Positions 1-11,812 of a DNA stretch of 12,954 nucleotides are shown one piece after another. Source of the DNA: Bacillota bacterium (GTDB lineage Bacteria > Bacillota > Clostridia > Oscillospirales > Oscillospiraceae); contig JAGFXS010000021.1 of assembly GCA_017861415.1 (NCBI GenBank), forward strand, positions 1 through 12,954, read 5' to 3'. Under the pieces are notes generated by a model. The model saw nothing but the letters and a program-made list of their open reading frames with translations. It made no database searches and was not told the DNA's origin. The first letter of the stretch is position 1. Every line of letters starts with the position of its first letter. A program made the translations under genes and the position numbers.

Positions 1-224
1 GGCGGGGCGAGTTTGAGATTCTCCAGCCGGAAGAATATTACCATTTAGTGGCCGATGCTCTGGAAATCCTGCCGGAGCGTATTGTCATACATCGTCTTAC
101 TGGCGACGGGCCAAAAAAAGATTTGATTGCTCCACTCTGGAGCGCCGACAAAAAGCGTGTGCTGAACGATTTGAACCGTGTGTTGAGGCAGCGCGGTATT
201 AGTGTGGCATCAAAGTGCATTTGA
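1..224 (+). CDS. TIGR01212/YhcC-family radical SAM protein, C-terminal end (partial)
   Basis: Only the last 73 codons are in the window; the reading frame begins at base 3 and ends with TGA at 222-224. The visible tail carries the block HRLTGDGPKKDLIAPLWS followed by a VLN..LNRVL helix. I recognise this as the conserved C-terminus of the YhcC/TIGR01212 radical SAM proteins, which are about 300 residues long. The radical SAM Cys motif must lie upstream of the window and cannot be checked. The family's substrate is not firmly known to me. It is followed 86 bp later by another radical SAM gene on the same strand, so the two may be co-transcribed. No terminator is seen between them. If the sigK-splitting element proposed for 4906 is real and its left end lies outside the window, this gene is element cargo. 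Confidence 0.8.
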   Translation, partial: RGEFEILQPEEYYHLVADALEILPERIVIHRLTGDGPKKDLIAPLWSADKKRVLNDLNRVLRQRGISVASKCI

Positions 225-310
225 ACTGCGCATTTTGTTTCATCACGTTTAACGGTCAAGGATAGCTTCTTATACAATAAAATGGTCCTGATACAATGAG
301 GAAATCACAT

Positions 311-1141
311 ATGGAAAAAGAAATTAACGTCGTTATCTGCTCCCTTAATTCACAATACATCCATTCGTCACTTGCTCCGTGGTGCCTATTGGCGGGACTG
401 GAGGAATATGTACGTGATGGGATAAATGCCGGTGTGGTTGAGGGAACCATCAACGAAGCGCCACGGGATGTGCTAGAGCGAATCCTTTCCCGTAGCCCAA
501 CAGTGGTGGGATTTTGCTGTTATATTTGGAACATAACCGAAATATTTGAGCTTGTGAAACAAATAAAGCAAGAATTATGCGAATGTGTCATCGTTCTGGG
601 TGGCCCGGAAGTAAGCTATCACGTAGGAGAGGTTCTTCAGAACACGCCTTTTGTTGATTATGTGATCTCTGGCGAAGGCGAAAAGCCGTTCGCCGAGCTG
701 CTTCTAGCAATTTGCGGCGGCACAGAGGTTGCAGGGATTCCGGGTCTTTGTTACCGCAAAGGCAGTGAAATAGTAATAGCAGAACCCTATACGCCGTGCG
801 AGATCCCACCCAGTCCTTATACCAAACGGTATTTTGCCGCCTTGAACGGGCGTATCGCCTATTTGGAAACCAGCCGTGGGTGTCCTTATTCCTGTGCATT
901 TTGCCTGTCGGGGCGCTGCGGTGGGGTGCGGTATTACGACATGGAACGAGTGAAAAAAGAGCTCTTACTCCTTGCCAATAGCGGAACCCAAACTGTCAAG
1001 TTGGTAGACCGTACGTTCAACGCACACCGCAGCAGGGCGAACGAGTTGTTCCGCTTTATTTCCCGTTGGCTCCATGCAATTCGAAATCGGATTGCAGAGC
1101 TTCAATCCGAAAACACTTGCCGGAGTAAACCGCAGAACTGA
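311..1141 (+). pseudogene. B12-binding radical SAM protein (DUF4080 type), N-terminal fragment of a broken gene
   Basis: The fragment holds the N-terminal cobalamin-binding-like domain (opening NVVICSLNSQYIHSSLAPW, roughly residues 1-125) and the start of a radical SAM core with an intact CxxxCxxC cluster motif (SRGCPYSCAFCLSG, about residues 190-203). Genuine family sequence runs to VDRTFNAHRSRANELFRFI, ending near base 1060. After that the frame reads about 26 unrelated residues to a TGA at 1139-1141. The start ATG at 311 is preferred over the in-frame ATG at 296, because GAGGAA at 298-303 lies 7 bases upstream of 311. The continuation of the protein is in another frame from about base 1062. 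Intact relatives have, as I remember them, some 35 more residues at this point, which form part of the barrel, so this copy is probably inactive. An assembly error is the alternative explanation. Confidence 0.8.
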
Positions 1142-1916
1142 CGTGGACAGACTGAAAGAAAACATATCCGCACTTCGCTTGAAAGGTAACACCCACATCC
1201 ACATTGACCTGATCGCCGGACTGCCTTATGAGGATATGAGCAGTTTCATAGACAGCTTCAACACTGCCTTTGCCCTGCGTCCACATATGCTTCAGCTCGG
1301 CTTTTTAAAGCTTCTTCACGGCTCGCCAATGCGGGAAAACCCCCAGCAGTTCCCCTGTGAATACAGTCAAAATCCACCCTATGAGGTAACCAAAACCCCC
1401 TGGCTCTCTGAAAAAGACCTCGAACAGCTTCATCACACCGAGCACGCACTGAACAAGCTATACAACCGTGGGCGATTTCGCGGCACGCTGGCTTACCTGT
1501 TCAGCCGGATGACGGAAAATCCCTTTGAGCTTTTCTGCCGGTTTGGGGTATTCCTGTCCCAAACAGATCAGAACCAGAAATCTTTGGACGATTTCACCGC
1601 TTTGGTGTTTTCTTATTTCTCTGGTCAATCAAACGTCGATGGGGCCCTCCTCCGAGACTATATGGTATGCGACCGCCTTGCCACAAACGCCTCGGGAAGG
1701 ATTCCAGAAGCGCTCCGGATCGATGATCCAAGGCTTAAATTGGCGATTAGGGCTTTAGAGCGTGAACACGGGCGCAAGAAAGGGATAAAACGAGGTTATG
1801 CCTTGCTTTACAGCGAGAACTGCCTAGCTTATACTGATTATGAAGATAAAAACCCCGTGACAGGGGAGTATCTCATAAGCAAATATCCCTTTGACGTAAA
1901 CTTTGATGCACGCTGA
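1074..1916 (+). pseudogene. B12-binding radical SAM protein (DUF4080 type), C-terminal fragment of the same broken gene
   Basis: Family-like sequence begins at about base 1062 (PVGSMQFEIGLQSF) in a frame different from that of the upstream fragment. It continues through NRRTDVDRLKENI, HIHIDLIAGLPYED and LQLGFLKLLHGSPM, the rest of the radical SAM barrel, and then through the C-terminal DUF4080 region to TGA at 1914-1916. The first ATG (1074) lies inside conserved barrel sequence and has no ribosome binding site, so it is not a real start. The two fragments together make about 540 residues. As I recall, the family has a further stretch between FRFI and the QFEIG strand, containing an FEIAAD-like motif and a helix ending in AP. 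That stretch is missing here, so the lesion is a deletion that shifts the frame, not a simple one-base indel. Codon use looks normal throughout. Confidence 0.78.
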
Positions 1917-2016
1917 AGGTGAAGCAAATCAAATCAAATCTCTTGATCTGTACTATGGAAACAATGATTCCTGGGAACAGGCCGGTCCCTACGTTTAGCA
2001 TAGAGAGGAGTTCTCA

Positions 2017-2958
2017 ATGGCGTATTATGATGAAAGATTACAGCTTCTTTCTCGGCAAGTTGAGCAAAAGAAGCACAAAGCGTCCAAACTAAAAGAATTA
2101 TACATTCAACGCGAGGCTTTGAGCGCCAAGGTAGATGTGCTTAGAGCAACTAAGTTGTACGAACAAGCTGATGTGAAGCGGCTGGAGGGCCGTAGTTTAG
2201 CCGCCTTCTTCTATGGAGTTATTGGAAAGATGGATGAAAAGTTGGATAAAGAGCGCGAAGAAGCCTATGCTGCCAGCGTGAAGTATGACGTTGCAGCACG
2301 TGAACTTTCTGCGGTCGAGGAGGATATCGAACGCTACGAGGCAGAGTTTGCTGAACTGAATGAATGTGAGCAGCAATATGCGCAAATGCTGAAGGATAAG
2401 CTGGAGGCTGTGAAATCCCTCGGCACTCAAGGTGCGGAGGAAATTCTTCGGATGGAGGAGCATATCTCTTATCTGGAGGGGCAGAGGAAAGAAATCCGAG
2501 AGGCGCTTGGGGCTGGTCAGGCCGCGCTTGAGACCACCAATCAGATTCTAGCTAGTCTTAATAGTGCGGAAGGCTGGGGCACTTGGGATTTGATGGGCGG
2601 TGGGCTGCTATCGGATATGGCAAAGCACAGTCATCTGGATAAAGCTCAGCAGCAGGTTGAGTATTTGCAGGTACAGTTGCGCCGTTTTAAAACAGAGCTG
2701 ACCGACGTGACAATTCAGGCAGATATACGGATCAGCATTGACGGCTTTTTGTCCTTTGCGGATTACTTTTTTGACGGACTATTTGCTGATTGGGCAGTGT
2801 TGGATAAAATTAATCAATCCAAAATGCAGGTGCAGGATATCAGGAGCCAAATTGAGCAGGTCATAATCCGCTTGACCGCTATGCTCAGTGCTACGGAGAA
2901 AAATCTTGAAGATGAAAAAGAAGAATTAAATCAATTCATTGTGCGGGCAAAAATGTGA
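2017..2958 (+). CDS. Conserved coiled-coil protein of unknown function
   Basis: A 313-residue, strongly charged protein with no signal peptide or membrane segment, so it is probably cytoplasmic. Long Glu/Lys/Gln-rich helices that read as coiled coil cover about residues 5-60, 75-180 and 210-230, with another at 265-308. They are interrupted by a conserved-looking Gly-rich block at 186-208 (GWGTWDLMGGGLLSDMAKHSH) and a hydrophobic patch at 240-262. I recall similar blocks in unannotated Firmicute proteins but know no function. The start is clear: AGAGGAG at 2004-2010 lies 6 bases before ATG. The gene sits between the broken DUF4080 gene and the serine recombinase on the same strand, and so would be cargo of the proposed sigK element. 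A chaperone-like, structural or stress role would be a guess. Confidence 0.75.
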   Translation: MAYYDERLQLLSRQVEQKKHKASKLKELYIQREALSAKVDVLRATKLYEQADVKRLEGRSLAAFFYGVIGKMDEKLDKEREEAYAASVKYDVAARELSAVEEDIERYEAEFAELNECEQQYAQMLKDKLEAVKSLGTQGAEEILRMEEHISYLEGQRKEIREALGAGQAALETTNQILASLNSAEGWGTWDLMGGGLLSDMAKHSHLDKAQQQVEYLQVQLRRFKTELTDVTIQADIRISIDGFLSFADYFFDGLFADWAVLDKINQSKMQVQDIRSQIEQVIIRLTAMLSATEKNLEDEKEELNQFIVRAKM

Positions 2959-3203
2959 GACAGCGGTGCAGCTGAAACGGAATGGGTAGGCTTTTTAGGC
3001 GACCATTATATTTGTCATGGTTTTGCACTAAGGTGGGTGATTTCCTCGCGCTCCGAAAGGCATGATACTAACAAGACTTTCTGATGCACAGTTAATATGC
3101 TTGGAGTGATCCCCATTATGTTCAGGAGGGTGCTCACCCACTTGCATTTTATTGCGGGACGCTATGATAGGAATGAAAATATTATCACAAATGCGGGGCG
3201 AAC
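2959..3203. other. Intergenic region upstream of the recombinase with a long-range inverted repeat
   Basis: These 245 bases hold no credible gene. GTGGGTGA at 3033-3040 is matched by its complement TCACCCAC at 3134-3141, extendable by two pairs including one G-T pair, with 93 bases between. A shorter repeat, ACCAT/ATGGT, with a short T run lies near 3002-3024 and could be a weak terminator for the preceding gene. TTGCAT (3142-3147) and TATGAT (3163-3168) resemble promoter boxes, but the spacing of 15 is short. I could not place a convincing sigma-E or sigma-K promoter, which is what a skin-type recombinase would be expected to use. Confidence 0.45.
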
Positions 3204-4910
3204 GTGGTGAAAGAACATAAATGCATTGCAATCTACTCCCGAAAGTCCAAATTTACCGGTAAAGGTGAAAGCATCGAAAACCAGATCGAGCTCTGCCGGC
3301 AGTACATTCGGGTGAGCAGTGGGGATGAAGCGGCGGATGGGGCCTTGATTTACGAAGATGAGGGCTTTTCCGGCGGCAATTTAGAGCGCCCGCAGTTTAA
3401 ACGTATGATGCTGGATGCTAAGGGAGGAAAACTCTCTACCATTGTGGTCTACCGCTTGGACCGCATCAGCCGTAACATCGGTGATTTTGCGGGATTGATT
3501 GAGTCTTTAAACGACATGAAGATTTCCTTTGTGTCTATCAAGGAGCAGTTTGACACCAATTCCCCCATGGGCCGCGCCATGATGTATATTGCCTCGGTTT
3601 TCTCACAGCTGGAGAGAGAGACGATTGCCGAGCGGATCAGGGATAATATGCACGAGCTGGCGAAGAGCGGACGTTGGTTGGGCGGGACAACACCGACGGG
3701 GTTTGGCTCTGAACAGGTGCAGAGGTTAACGGTGGATGGTAAGGTACGCAAATCCTGTAAACTGAAAATCATTTCAGAGGAAGCGGAATTGATACGGTTA
3801 ATTTATGCAAAGTTTCTCGAGACACGTTCTATTACCAACACGGATGCGTTCCTGCTTCAGCAAAACTATTTGACCAAGAACGGTAAGAACTTCACTCGAT
3901 TTGCCATCAAGGGTATCCTGACAAATCCTGTCTACGCCAAGGCAGACCCTGCGGTGTGGGACTATTTCCAAGAGCAAGGCGTGGATTTGTTTGCCGAGCA
4001 AGCTGATTTTAACGGGGATCGTGGCGTGATGGCCTATAACCGCACGGAGCAAAAGCCGGGCAGGACCAACCAAATTCGCCCCATGGAAGAGTGGATTGTG
4101 GCACTCGGAGCCCACCAGGGCTTAATTGAAGGTGCTGACTGGGTTAAGGCGCAATATTTGTTGGAACAGAACCGTAGCAAGGGATATCGCAAGCCACGTA
4201 GCAACGTGGCGCTGTTGTCAGGCTTGCTGGTGTGCGGAGACTGTGGTGACTACATGAGGCCTAAGCTATCTAAGCGTGAGAATGCCGCCGGCGAGCGAAT
4301 GTTCTCCTACGTCTGCGAAATGAAAGAGCGAAGCCGCAGTCAGCGCTGCAAGATCCGTAATGTCAATGGCAATCTACTGGACAAAATGGTGGTGGAGGAA
4401 CTCAAAAAGCTGCCCCAGCAGGACAGCCAATTTATGCAGTATTTGAAACAGGGTGAGCAGCTAATCCGGGGCAACCGGGAAGAGTATGATCAGCAAATGG
4501 AACAGCTGCAAAAGGCGATGGGGGAGAAGGAACGAGAAATTAGCGCACTACTGAGCACGCTAGGAAAGGCATATGGTAGCGTTGCCGAAGAGTATCTCCT
4601 GCGCCGTATTGAGGATTTGCACAGCCAAGCGGAAGGATTGCGAATGCAGAGCGAGGAGCTCAGGCGTCTGACCGCAGGCCCTGCTATGGTGGATATGCAG
4701 TTTGACTTGTTACGCCAGATGGTGACCTCCTTCGCCGCAACCATCGACTCCATGACCGTAGAGCAGCAGCGAGCTGCTATCCGCACCTGCGTAAGGAAGC
4801 TGGTCTGGGATGGGGAAAATATTGAGCTCTATCTCTTTGGTTCTGAGGATGAGGTGGACTTCTCAGAACTGAGTGATTCTGATGAGCCGCTCTGTGAGGA
4901 TAGCAAATGA
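3204..4910 (+). CDS. Large serine recombinase, probable sigK-element excisionase (SpoIVCA-like role)
   Basis: A complete 568-residue large serine recombinase. The N-terminal resolvase domain (about residues 7-155) has the YSRKS motif with the presumed nucleophile Ser15, the YRLDRISRN block (83-91) and FSQLERETIAERI (133-145). A recombinase domain follows (about 165-300). A zinc ribbon has Cys344, Cys347, Cys371 and Cys382, and a coiled coil covers about 411-490. All expected parts are present, so it should be active. Such enzymes join short identical core sequences through a Ser-DNA bond. The start is GTG at 3204 or the adjacent GTG at 3207; GGGG at 3195-3198 is only a weak ribosome binding site. 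The stop TGA lies inside AATGA (4906-4910), exactly where SigK coding sequence begins. That position, together with the missing N-half of sigK, points to a skin-type recombinase that rebuilds sigK in the mother cell. A phage or transposon integrase that inserted into sigK is the alternative. Confidence 0.9.
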   Translation: MVKEHKCIAIYSRKSKFTGKGESIENQIELCRQYIRVSSGDEAADGALIYEDEGFSGGNLERPQFKRMMLDAKGGKLSTIVVYRLDRISRNIGDFAGLIESLNDMKISFVSIKEQFDTNSPMGRAMMYIASVFSQLERETIAERIRDNMHELAKSGRWLGGTTPTGFGSEQVQRLTVDGKVRKSCKLKIISEEAELIRLIYAKFLETRSITNTDAFLLQQNYLTKNGKNFTRFAIKGILTNPVYAKADPAVWDYFQEQGVDLFAEQADFNGDRGVMAYNRTEQKPGRTNQIRPMEEWIVALGAHQGLIEGADWVKAQYLLEQNRSKGYRKPRSNVALLSGLLVCGDCGDYMRPKLSKRENAAGERMFSYVCEMKERSRSQRCKIRNVNGNLLDKMVVEELKKLPQQDSQFMQYLKQGEQLIRGNREEYDQQMEQLQKAMGEKEREISALLSTLGKAYGSVAEEYLLRRIEDLHSQAEGLRMQSEELRRLTAGPAMVDMQFDLLRQMVTSFAATIDSMTVEQQRAAIRTCVRKLVWDGENIELYLFGSEDEVDFSELSDSDEPLCEDSK

Positions 4911-5283
4911 AATCCTAATGCATTTCCGGTCGCAGAGAAAGCTGCAAGGAGAGGTTTCCCTGTCCGAAACCCTGGATGCTGATCAGGAAGGGAACTCTCT
5001 TTCTCTCATGGATGTCATCAGCGTAGAGGACAATATGCTGGATGTTTTGGATGCAAGAGATTCCTGCCAAAAATTGCGCCAAAGCATCCAAGATTGCCTG
5101 ACACCCCGTGAGGCTATGGTTATCACTATGCGCTATGGCATGGACAACAAAGCGCCCAGAACACAGCGAGAAATTGCCACCCAATGCGGAATTTCTCGCT
5201 CCTACGTGTCGCGCATCGAGAAAAAGGCACTGGAAAAATTGAAGGTTCAGATGGAGGGGGAACCAGGACGTCGAATGAAGTAA
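4873..5283 (+). CDS. sigK: RNA polymerase sigma-K factor, C-terminal half (SpoIIIC-like, split gene)
   Basis: From residue 12 (base 4906) this is the C-terminal part of SigK, the late mother-cell sigma factor. It begins NEILMHFRSQRK, continues through the acidic linker SLSETLDADQEGNSLSLMDV, and has region 4 with LTPREAMVITMRYG (76-89) and a helix-turn-helix TQREIATQCGISRSYVSRIEKKALEKL (97-123). Regions 1.2-2.4, which bind core polymerase and the -10 box, are missing; about 125 of some 235 residues remain. Residues 1-11 are read from the end of the recombinase gene in another frame and do not resemble SigK, so the ATG at 4873 is only the first in-frame start and probably unused. Homology starting exactly at AATGA is the state expected before excision of a skin-type element. 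After excision, the upstream half would join in frame at Asn-Glu. A plain pseudogene cannot be ruled out without the left flank. Confidence 0.88.
   Translation: MILMSRSVRIANEILMHFRSQRKLQGEVSLSETLDADQEGNSLSLMDVISVEDNMLDVLDARDSCQKLRQSIQDCLTPREAMVITMRYGMDNKAPRTQREIATQCGISRSYVSRIEKKALEKLKVQMEGEPGRRMK
4906..4910 (+). other. Putative recombination core (attachment site) AATGA at the right end of a sigK-splitting element
   Basis: AATGA spans the end of the recombinase gene (its TGA stop is 4908-4910) and the Asn-Glu codons where SigK homology starts. From memory, AATGA at this same Asn-Glu position is the 5-bp crossover repeat of the B. subtilis skin element. The matching left-end copy is not in the window. 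Because the core is shared by both ends, the recombinase would keep its stop codon in the excised circle. Confidence 0.7.
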
Positions 5284-5402: not shown

Positions 5403-5437
5403 GCAAGCAGATACGTCTACTGGGGAGGTGAGGAGCG

Positions 5438-5674
5438 ATGAATCCCTGTGGAGGGACCATAGGTGTCACGGCTCTGGCCAATCTCATTGCAGAGACTATG
5501 TCCGATGAGGAGCTGGAGTTGTTTCTGCTAAGCGTAGTGCAGTTCAAGGTTACCATTGAGAACATCCTCCTCACTCGTGCTGTGATCAAGCGGAAGGGAG
5601 AAGTCCTAGAAGCTGAACCCACATCAGCCCCAGGGGTAACCAGCAGGGCTACACCAAATACAGGCAGACGTTAA
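5438..5674 (+). CDS. Small conserved protein, DUF6774-like
   Basis: A 78-residue protein preceded by a long purine-rich ribosome binding site, GGGGAGGTGAGGAG (5422-5435), which supports real translation. The N-terminal half reads MNPCGGTIGVTALANLIAETMSDEELELF and is followed by a hydrophobic-amphipathic helix (residues 30-50). This resembles the short clostridial proteins I recall as DUF6774, which share a Cys near the start, an ALAN motif and a DDEL/DEEL turn. The C-terminal 25 residues are polar and look disordered. No signal peptide or catalytic motif is visible and the function is unknown. It lies after the sigK segment on the same strand and before the bidirectional terminator, so it may be read from a sigK promoter after rearrangement, but this is inference. 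Confidence 0.6.
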   Translation: MNPCGGTIGVTALANLIAETMSDEELELFLLSVVQFKVTIENILLTRAVIKRKGEVLEAEPTSAPGVTSRATPNTGRR

Positions 5675-11614: not shown

Positions 11615-11643
11615 TTGACACATTCGCCTGCAGGTGCTATCTT
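11615..11643 (+). promoter_or_regulatory. Promoter of the ilv leader and ilvB
   Basis: TTGACA (11615-11620) is followed after exactly 17 bases by TATCTT (11638-11643), with TGC directly before it as an extended -10. The spacer contains the 8-base palindrome CCTGCAGG (11627-11634). Transcription would start near 11650, giving a leader of about 300 bases before ilvB. Confidence 0.78.
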
Positions 11644-11692
11644 AAATAAAAAGCAAATGCCAAGGAAACAACACACATTGGAGTATATAATT

Positions 11693-11812
11693 ATGAACAA
11701 GTTCTTGCATACAATTAAGGTGCGGCTTGTCAGCATTATTCTAGTACTAGTATCCGTAGTACGAATTAGAATAATGCCTAAAGTCATACCCATGTTGGAT
11801 TGTAACGCGTGA
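11693..11812 (+). CDS. Ile/Leu/Val-rich leader peptide of ilvB (attenuation peptide)
   Basis: A 39-residue reading frame with a ribosome binding site, GGAG at 11680-11683, 9 bases before ATG. Eighteen of 39 residues are Ile, Leu or Val, and residues 12-27 (LVSIILVLVSVVRIRI) have 12 of 16. Several codons seem chosen to be slow: GTA is used four times here but only about three times in the 336 visible ilvB codons, and CTA twice against once. This is the design of the leader peptides of proteobacterial ilv operons: when charged branched-chain tRNA is short, the ribosome stalls and changes the RNA fold. The peptide itself probably has no function. It lies between a good promoter and a strong terminator before ilvB. 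An in-frame ATG at 11615 lies inside the promoter and is ignored. Confidence 0.8.
   Translation: MNKFLHTIKVRLVSIILVLVSVVRIRIMPKVIPMLDCNA
11733..11777 (+). promoter_or_regulatory. Long leader hairpin over the Ile/Leu/Val codons
   Basis: GCATTATTCTA (11733-11743) pairs perfectly with TAGAATAATGC (11767-11777). Directly inside, GTACTA (11744-11749) pairs with TAGTAC (11757-11762), with a 7-base loop and a 4-base bulge GAAT on the 3' side. The 17-bp stem covers codons 14-28 of the leader peptide, so a translating or stalled ribosome would open it. It would serve as the pause or anti-antiterminator structure. Confidence 0.72.

Follow-up and report, generated by a model that had tools for sequence, protein, structure and literature searches.

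Sequence evidence for skin-type elements at up to three sites of the sporulation gene sigK in an Oscillospiraceae-type genome and its relatives

The sporulation gene sigK of an Oscillospiraceae-type bacterium appears to lie in three pieces. One element at a site termed A and another at a site termed B would separate these pieces, each excised by its own recombinase, and SigmaK could form only after every cut has been closed; we put the probability of this reading at about 0.75. The stretch of DNA analysed here (the window, 12,954 nucleotides of GenBank contig JAGFXS010000021.1) supports a skin-type element within sigK, of which it contains the right end. Across the family, sequence comparison shows that three families of site-specific elements have repeatedly targeted sigK, which in some genomes is multiply cut. 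Skin elements as such, and several elements in one gene of cyanobacteria (nif), are already known.

The window carries a complete large serine recombinase of 568 residues (LSR-B, Table 1). A Pfam search of the window ORFs identifies its Resolvase (1e-33), Recombinase (1.1e-16), and zinc-ribbon (1.6e-11) domains, and PHROGs assigns it to the integrase family phrog_95 (1.9e-103). SigK models match the ORF at 4873-5283 from profile position 109-111 almost to its end (3.2e-40 and 6.6e-38), the piece covering positions 109-225 of the SigK family model. The two genes overlap at their junction: the final LSR-B codons are GAG GAT AGC AAA TGA, and the SigK frame through the same bases is ATA GCA AAT GAA ATC CTA ATG. 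The LSR-B stop TGA is found at 4908-4910, the SigK Asn codon at 4906-4908, and AATGA, encoding the Asn-Glu of NEILM (site B), at 4906-4910. A preliminary description of this DNA had placed the end of a complete serine recombinase at the start of the SigK C-terminal homology, at AATGA, and this is confirmed to the base. It had also equated AATGA with the crossover repeat of the B. subtilis skin, and the accessible text of PMC10745906 gives AATGA as the core repeat of that element. The sigK N-terminal half, which it had noted as absent from the window, is absent in a SigK model search as well, which finds no further sigK piece on the window contig.

The element-side string GAGGATAGCAAA occurs in 19 distinct contexts within 3.41 Mb of DNA enriched for sigK/recombinase loci, and all 19 are sigK junctions, which exceeds chance expectation. 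A third site (site C, between YVSR and IEKK, see below) is uninterrupted in the window 3' exon, which covers columns 1-89 of the C-terminal profile. The three non-recombinase ORFs in the visible 4.9 kb of the element have no PHROGs match. The coding region of the B12-binding radical SAM/DUF4080 protein is disrupted, its two frames (296-1141 and 1074-1916) overlapping. Host sigK bases complete the stop codon of LSR-B both in the window (4894-4910) and in a same-genus genome, G006 (locus L044, ~4850-4900 and 15550-15566). After excision, the LSR-B frame would continue into the other element end in the circle, gaining a tail.

Table 1. Features of the site-B element and of sigK, in window positions.
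Feature	Position	Strand	Remarks
Site-B element, visible right part	1..4905	+	At least 4.9 kb; right end set by the sigK junction; left end beyond the window
B12-binding radical SAM/DUF4080 cargo	296..1916	+	Pfam B12-binding, Radical_SAM, DUF4080
313-aa cargo protein	2017..2958	+	No Pfam or PHROGs match
LSR-B, site-B recombinase	3204..4910	+	Same direction as sigK; junction completes its stop codon
attR-B element half GTGAGGATAGCA	4894..4905	+	Inverted counterpart TGCTATCCTATCAC in attL-B of G006; string specific to sigK junctions
Presumed crossover dinucleotide AA	4906..4907	+	First two bases of the SigK Asn codon; presumed in the own genome
sigK 3' exon, NEILM to C-terminus including stop	4906..5283	+	NCBIfam SigK match

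The whole site-B arrangement is found in G006 (6 contigs), in which a 5' piece (..CVENAIL), ~10.7 kb, and a 3' piece follow one another on one contig. The G006 site-B recombinase is 89% identical to LSR-B of the window. At the DNA level, only positions 3165-4905 of the window align with the G006 element (84.5%), the remainder being private cargo. The G006 attachment sites attL-B (GAAAATGCTATCCTATCAC) and attR-B (GTGAGGATAGCAAATGAGATCC) display inverted arms flanking AA, and the string GAAAATGCTATCCT is present in 10 contexts, all sigK, in the 3.41 Mb enriched for sigK/recombinase loci. Insertions inside the sigK frame with SigK on both flanks are seen in G006, G014, and G020; for the window element, the 3' flank is SigK, and the left-flank piece was not found in the window's own genome. 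A sigK piece abuts LSR-B at site B in 29 of 30 loci, these being the best 30 by similarity and not a random sample. In 76 genomes of the same class outside the order's sample, judged by profile columns alone, at least 11 matches break off at the columns of site B, whereas none of the matches listed begins at site A; site B therefore looks old and widespread, and site A local. A Terrisporobacter phage with an integrase 38.5% identical was rejected, as no site-B half-site was found in the 241 bases at its integrase end.

The cargo of the G006 site-B element (L044 5357-13644) includes an SLH protein, msrA, pantoate ligase, aspartate decarboxylase, and a LysM protein; vitamin-synthesis genes are thus harbored within a skin-type element. 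That of Anaeromassilibacillus sp. An200 (L222 11845-13862) includes a chloramphenicol acetyltransferase family gene (Pfam CAT, 2.3e-77) and an ADP-ribosylglycohydrolase. In another genome, G128, LSR-B (G128:C29 38075-39100) is shortened in frame, lacking most of its C-terminal half and retaining the att end.

The window's own genome (G000) is a draft of 1.27 Mb in 152 contigs, 73% complete and with 2.2% contamination. A profile search of its contigs reveals another sigK piece on contig C77, matching positions 3-68 of the SigK family model. This piece reads ..NLRLVAHIIKK and then departs from SigK, ~40 codons before the window break, at a site A (HI.K|KYY). A 551-residue recombinase (LSR-A) on the opposite strand converges on it and ends at the break. 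Upstream are found a PAP2 phosphatase, a small exporter, and proC, a neighbourhood shared with the same-genus G003, where sigK is also broken at HIIKK, and G008, where it is uncut. The C77 piece was also considered as a paralogous fragment, which was rejected on the basis of this neighbourhood, that of sigK in G003 and G008, and of its best score, which is to SigK. A MotA/MotB-like pair and a two-component system lie beside LSR-A on C77 (L011 7676-11452), the far end of this element not being in view.

In this 73%-complete assembly, the middle exon (SigK positions 69-108) was not found, and the profile search returned no intact sigK. Contig C47, examined as a second, intact sigK, holds the sole full-length match, which is SigE, above both SigE cut-offs. 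The preliminary description would have yielded to an intact second sigK beside decayed exons; neither is observed, the only full-length match being SigE and the exons being without decay. Its expectation of a 5' piece ending in SRCIE followed by AATGA fared less well: the 5' piece of G000 ends in HIIKK, and the expected ending could not be encountered because the middle exon is absent from the assembly. The skin-like right end is supported, G006 having the whole arrangement. A lone skin element fails to account for the locus, in that the 5' piece stops at another site, against another recombinase. With two breaks at different codons and different recombinases, sigK of G000 is probably cut at both A and B.

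We infer that C77 and the window contig form one locus with an unassembled middle exon, the double cut being pieced together from these two contigs. Ten window proteins gave no match in the 15 relative loci compared, and hence synteny does not tie the window contig to C77; tetranucleotide composition leaves their linkage undecided. A SigK model search of G000 finds neither a 5' exon ending at site B nor a 3' part starting at site A.

A search for relatives of LSR-A covered 400 genomes of the family (E <= 1e-60 in 128). A sigK fragment is present at LSR-A in 30 of 30 loci, selected as the best 30 by similarity and not at random, the arrangement being either a 5' exon ending at KK (convergent) or a sigK part starting there (same direction). 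In a second set of 80 loci, drawn from named one-per-species records, sigK lies within 400 bp of the LSR-A 3' end in 73. These 73 pieces comprise 30 5' exons, 28 remainders extending past residue 200, 14 middle pieces only (one of which, L173, runs into a contig end), and one unclear case. As for the other seven loci, L189 and L218 meet contig ends, L223 has 686 bases left, and sigK is 2.4 kb away in L239 and 4.7 kb away in L210; L174 (Flintibacter muris) and L236 have no sigK in 10 kb. The LSR-A relative of Flintibacter muris is 62% identical. More distant relatives (~44% identity or less) are present in G025, G077, G111, and G153, with an uncut sigK on another contig, and those of G070 and G179 (47-50%) accompany a sigK uncut at site A. 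Three strong LSR-A matches (G152, G240, and G104) contain an in-frame stop.

Site C came to light from aberrant SigK C-termini. Among the fetched loci, 18 odd SigK ends face 84 normal ones, some of the counted ends belonging to other sporulation sigma factors; the odd ends show ISRSYVSR and a stop in place of IEKKAL. In 12 of the 18, the sequence continues with TAATGTAA at a constant distance, and in the other 6 with a variant, a regularity that dismisses sequencing error and led to site C. The missing exon 4 (VSRIEKKALEKL..) sits behind mirror-image sequence, beside a third recombinase family (LSR-C). Of the best 30 LSR-C loci, 27 abut exon 4, two face exon 3 (one of these, L295, through a lax motif match inside exon 3), and one does neither, placing 29 of 30 at sigK. 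The site-C arm TAATGTAAACGA occurs in 10 contexts in 3.41 Mb, seven of them exon 3 junctions and three reading as exon 4 junctions on the opposite strand. The site-C element of L177 (12226-15398) harbors a GmrSD-type restriction gene and an AAA/DUF4143 gene. An isolated SigK C-terminal fragment (positions 195-226) occurs at G031:C59 9659-9754. In the same-genus G002 (100% complete; contig C44, L316), exon 4 and LSR-C are present, and sigK exons 1-3 were not found in this assembly.

Taken together, these comparisons delineate the anatomy of sigK as read from its DNA, i.e., three sites with one recombinase family each, inverted arms, crossover bases common to both ends, and frames restored by joining. 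LSR-A, LSR-B, and LSR-C are mutually 23-25% identical, and both element orientations occur at each of the three sites. The middle piece (~residues 80-129) is an exon with the site-A break on one side and the site-B break on the other. Three exons follow in order on one contig in G149, separated by elements of ~8.4 and 7.7 kb (A+B), and in G128, with elements of ~11.2 and 6.9 kb (A+B), exon 4 and LSR-C of G128 being on a separate contig. In An200, a record without a MAG tag, sigK exons lie at 5409-5606, 11629-11793, and 18017-18346 of L222, with the A and B elements plus only the left end of C. The closed 4.3 Mb genome G115 carries B and C on one chromosome, its pieces being 10.9 and 21.7 kb apart. 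L177 and Flavonifractor sp. An100 are cut at both A and C, with all pieces on a single contig or on two stretches of it, and Pseudoflavonifractor capillosus An386a is cut at A. Five of 52 viral loci (L320-L323 and L361) contain a clear sigK piece; L361, filed as viral in IMG/VR, bears LSR-A, the sigK middle exon, and the site-B break. It thus appears that sigK can lie in up to four pieces and that three recombinase families each own one sigK site.

The exons were joined in silico at the presumed crossover bases, namely the AA of the first Lys codon (A) and the AA of the Asn codon (B). At site A, all 11 genomes tried regain HI.KKYY and a SigK that is in frame, G218 up to its own site-C break. 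The joins of L177 and An100 compared below used the second Lys codon for site A, which gives the same frame as the crossover-base rule. Site-B joins restore an in-frame SigK in all four relatives tried, and the window itself carries attR-B. Taking the longest shared core as the join point was abandoned, as it gave wrong joins for G006, G401, G237, G427, and G149. The double join of G149 yields 236 residues in frame, 142/226 identical to the uncut SigK of G008; the corresponding identities are 170/224 for G115, 157/222 for L177, 158/227 for An100, and 160/227 for G128, as compared to 165/226 and 160/226 for two uncut SigKs of the same genus. The exons are under constraint, with pN/pS of 0.06-0.37 over the pairs computed, synonymous sites being often saturated.

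The frequency of these cuts was assessed with profiles of SigK region 2 and of the C-terminus in 84 genomes of the family with a completeness of at least 95% and in the own genome; 17 genomes were followed up, and all states given here hold among the matches listed. No SigK- or SigE-level match was listed in five census genomes (G023, G079, G090, G097, and G146). Among the 79 genomes with such matches, sigK is interrupted in 26, of which 19 are cut once, five (5/79) at least twice, and two have the rest unfound. Single cuts are at A in seven genomes, at B in nine, and at C in three. The multiple ones are A+B in G149, B+C in G062 and G115, A+B+C in G128, and at least A and C in G126; G159 and G183 are cut at least at C. 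Also among the matches listed and with the own genome included, a strong recombinase match coincides with a cut in 11/11 cases for A, 14/14 for B, and 9/9 for C (C break or exon 4), at thresholds of 1e-160, 1e-120, and 1e-200, respectively, chosen after the data were seen. G137 (a site-C-like end without a strong LSR-C) and G179 (ending at column 83) were not scored as cut, and the SigK C-terminus of G270 was not recovered.

The window element resembles the skin of B. subtilis (recombinase SpoIVCA) by its target gene, by AATGA at the site-B junction, and by a serine recombinase inside the element at the junction. In contrast to skin, LSR-B of the window lies by the 3' exon instead of the 5' exon, the cargo is different, and second and third sites with other recombinases exist in relatives. 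The position of the recombinase immediately upstream of the sigK 3' part is that of C. difficile skinCd (recombinase CD1231, directionality factor CD1234), as described in the accessible text of PMC5025042; the position of skinCd in sigK differs from that of the B. subtilis skin (accessible parts of PMC5025042 and PMC6957869). Other serine-recombinase elements that split sporulation genes and are excised, viz. gin (gerE), vfbin, SP-beta (spsM), and yin (yabG), are reported in the available portions of PMC5595907 and PMC10747680; they differ by the genes concerned and by having one element per gene. For gin, the text available from PMC5595907 indicates that phage genes are not required in such an element. 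One element per sporulation gene, at sigK positions varying across species, is also the picture in the accessible parts of PMC5025042, PMC10782964, PMC13141910, PMC5553647, and PMC6957869, and searches of the open-licence literature gave no description of a sigK with more than one element. Several elements in one developmental gene are likewise known from the heterocyst elements (nifD, nifH, hupL) of cyanobacteria, which belong to another phylum, other genes, and another cell type; according to the available part of PMC4874684, 10 of 87 interrupted genes hold multiple elements, with four in nifD of Rivularia PCC 7116.

In the mechanism that we propose, sigK of G000 would comprise a 5' exon, a middle exon of ~44 codons, and a 3' exon. 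Each recombinase would pair attL and attR of its own element, with strand exchange at the shared dinucleotide, presumably AA at both sites, within the first Lys codon at A and the Asn codon at B. The element would be released as a circle and the sigK frame restored, SigmaK becoming available, we suppose, only once all cuts are healed. By analogy with the skins of B. subtilis and C. difficile, excision would take place in the mother cell only, so that spores would keep the elements. That excision occurs, when and in which cells it does so, and that a directionality factor takes part are presumptions. As regards the last, a small ORF ~45-260 bases upstream of LSR-C (L286, L295, and others), common to up to 17 other loci of the 30, may be a candidate. 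For LSR-A and LSR-B, no conserved small ORF was found in the upstream DNA; the apparent "conserved ORFs" at their 5' ends proved to be antisense shadows. With sites near HI.KKYY in region 2 (A), at NEILM (B), and inside the last helix-turn-helix (C), sigK might act as a combination lock, in which two to three independent mother-cell excisions would bring up to four pieces together and the elements would form an AND gate on late sporulation; to this extension we give even odds.

The double cut in G000 has to be weighed against a mixed bin, C77 and the window contig (C67) coming from two strains or species, one cut at A only and the other at B only, with no doubly cut cell. The state of the draft, with its 152 contigs, 73% completeness, and 2.2% contamination, is in keeping with such a mixture, as are contigs that neither sequence nor synteny links, an undecided composition, and the greater frequency of single over multiple cuts in the census (19 vs. 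5 of 26, among the matches listed). Yet doubly cut sigK genes on one contig are real in other genomes, so that nothing special is needed in G000, where the search found no rival 5' exon that stops at B and no 3' part that begins at A; we hold a mixture to be unlikely. The elements could also be dead insertions, fixed in a permanently broken sigK of bacteria that have given up spore formation. Sporulation does seem to be in the process of being lost in the family, given the five census genomes without a listed SigK/SigE-level match; some recombinases are broken (LSR-B of G128, the LSR-A stops), and G002 has exon 4 and LSR-C without exons 1-3 having been found. This is very unlikely, since joining restores the frame and yields genes that match an uncut SigK as closely as those of uncut relatives do, pN/pS is 0.06-0.37, and the recombinases are mostly full length, with strong recombinase and cut coinciding.

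Plain parasitism, in which conserved codons merely serve as attachment sites, excision occurs without sporulation control, and spores arise only from cells that lose the elements by chance, is in keeping with a cargo that varies among elements at one site (msrA/pantothenate, GmrSD, CAT family), for both orientations at each site, and for sites A and B falling within invariant SigK residues. Elements would nevertheless be too common (26/79, among the matches listed) if spores always lost them, and in both precedents, B. subtilis and C. difficile, excision is under mother-cell control according to the accessible text of PMC5025042 and PMC6957869; by analogy, we consider uncontrolled excision rather unlikely. 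Excision of both elements by their own recombinases remains the reading that we favour for G000.

Skin elements have so far been studied one per gene. In this major gut family, sigK can acquire as many as three elements, each at a site of its own, and is cut in about one third of the sampled genomes. These cuts explain apparently missing or truncated sigK genes in gut genomes and call for caution before gut bacteria with a cut sigK are termed asporogenous. They also yield three recombinase families with defined sites. Finally, the natural combinations (none, single, pairs, and triple), some of them in cultured isolates, allow a direct test of the role of skin elements, as a timing device or as a tolerated parasite.
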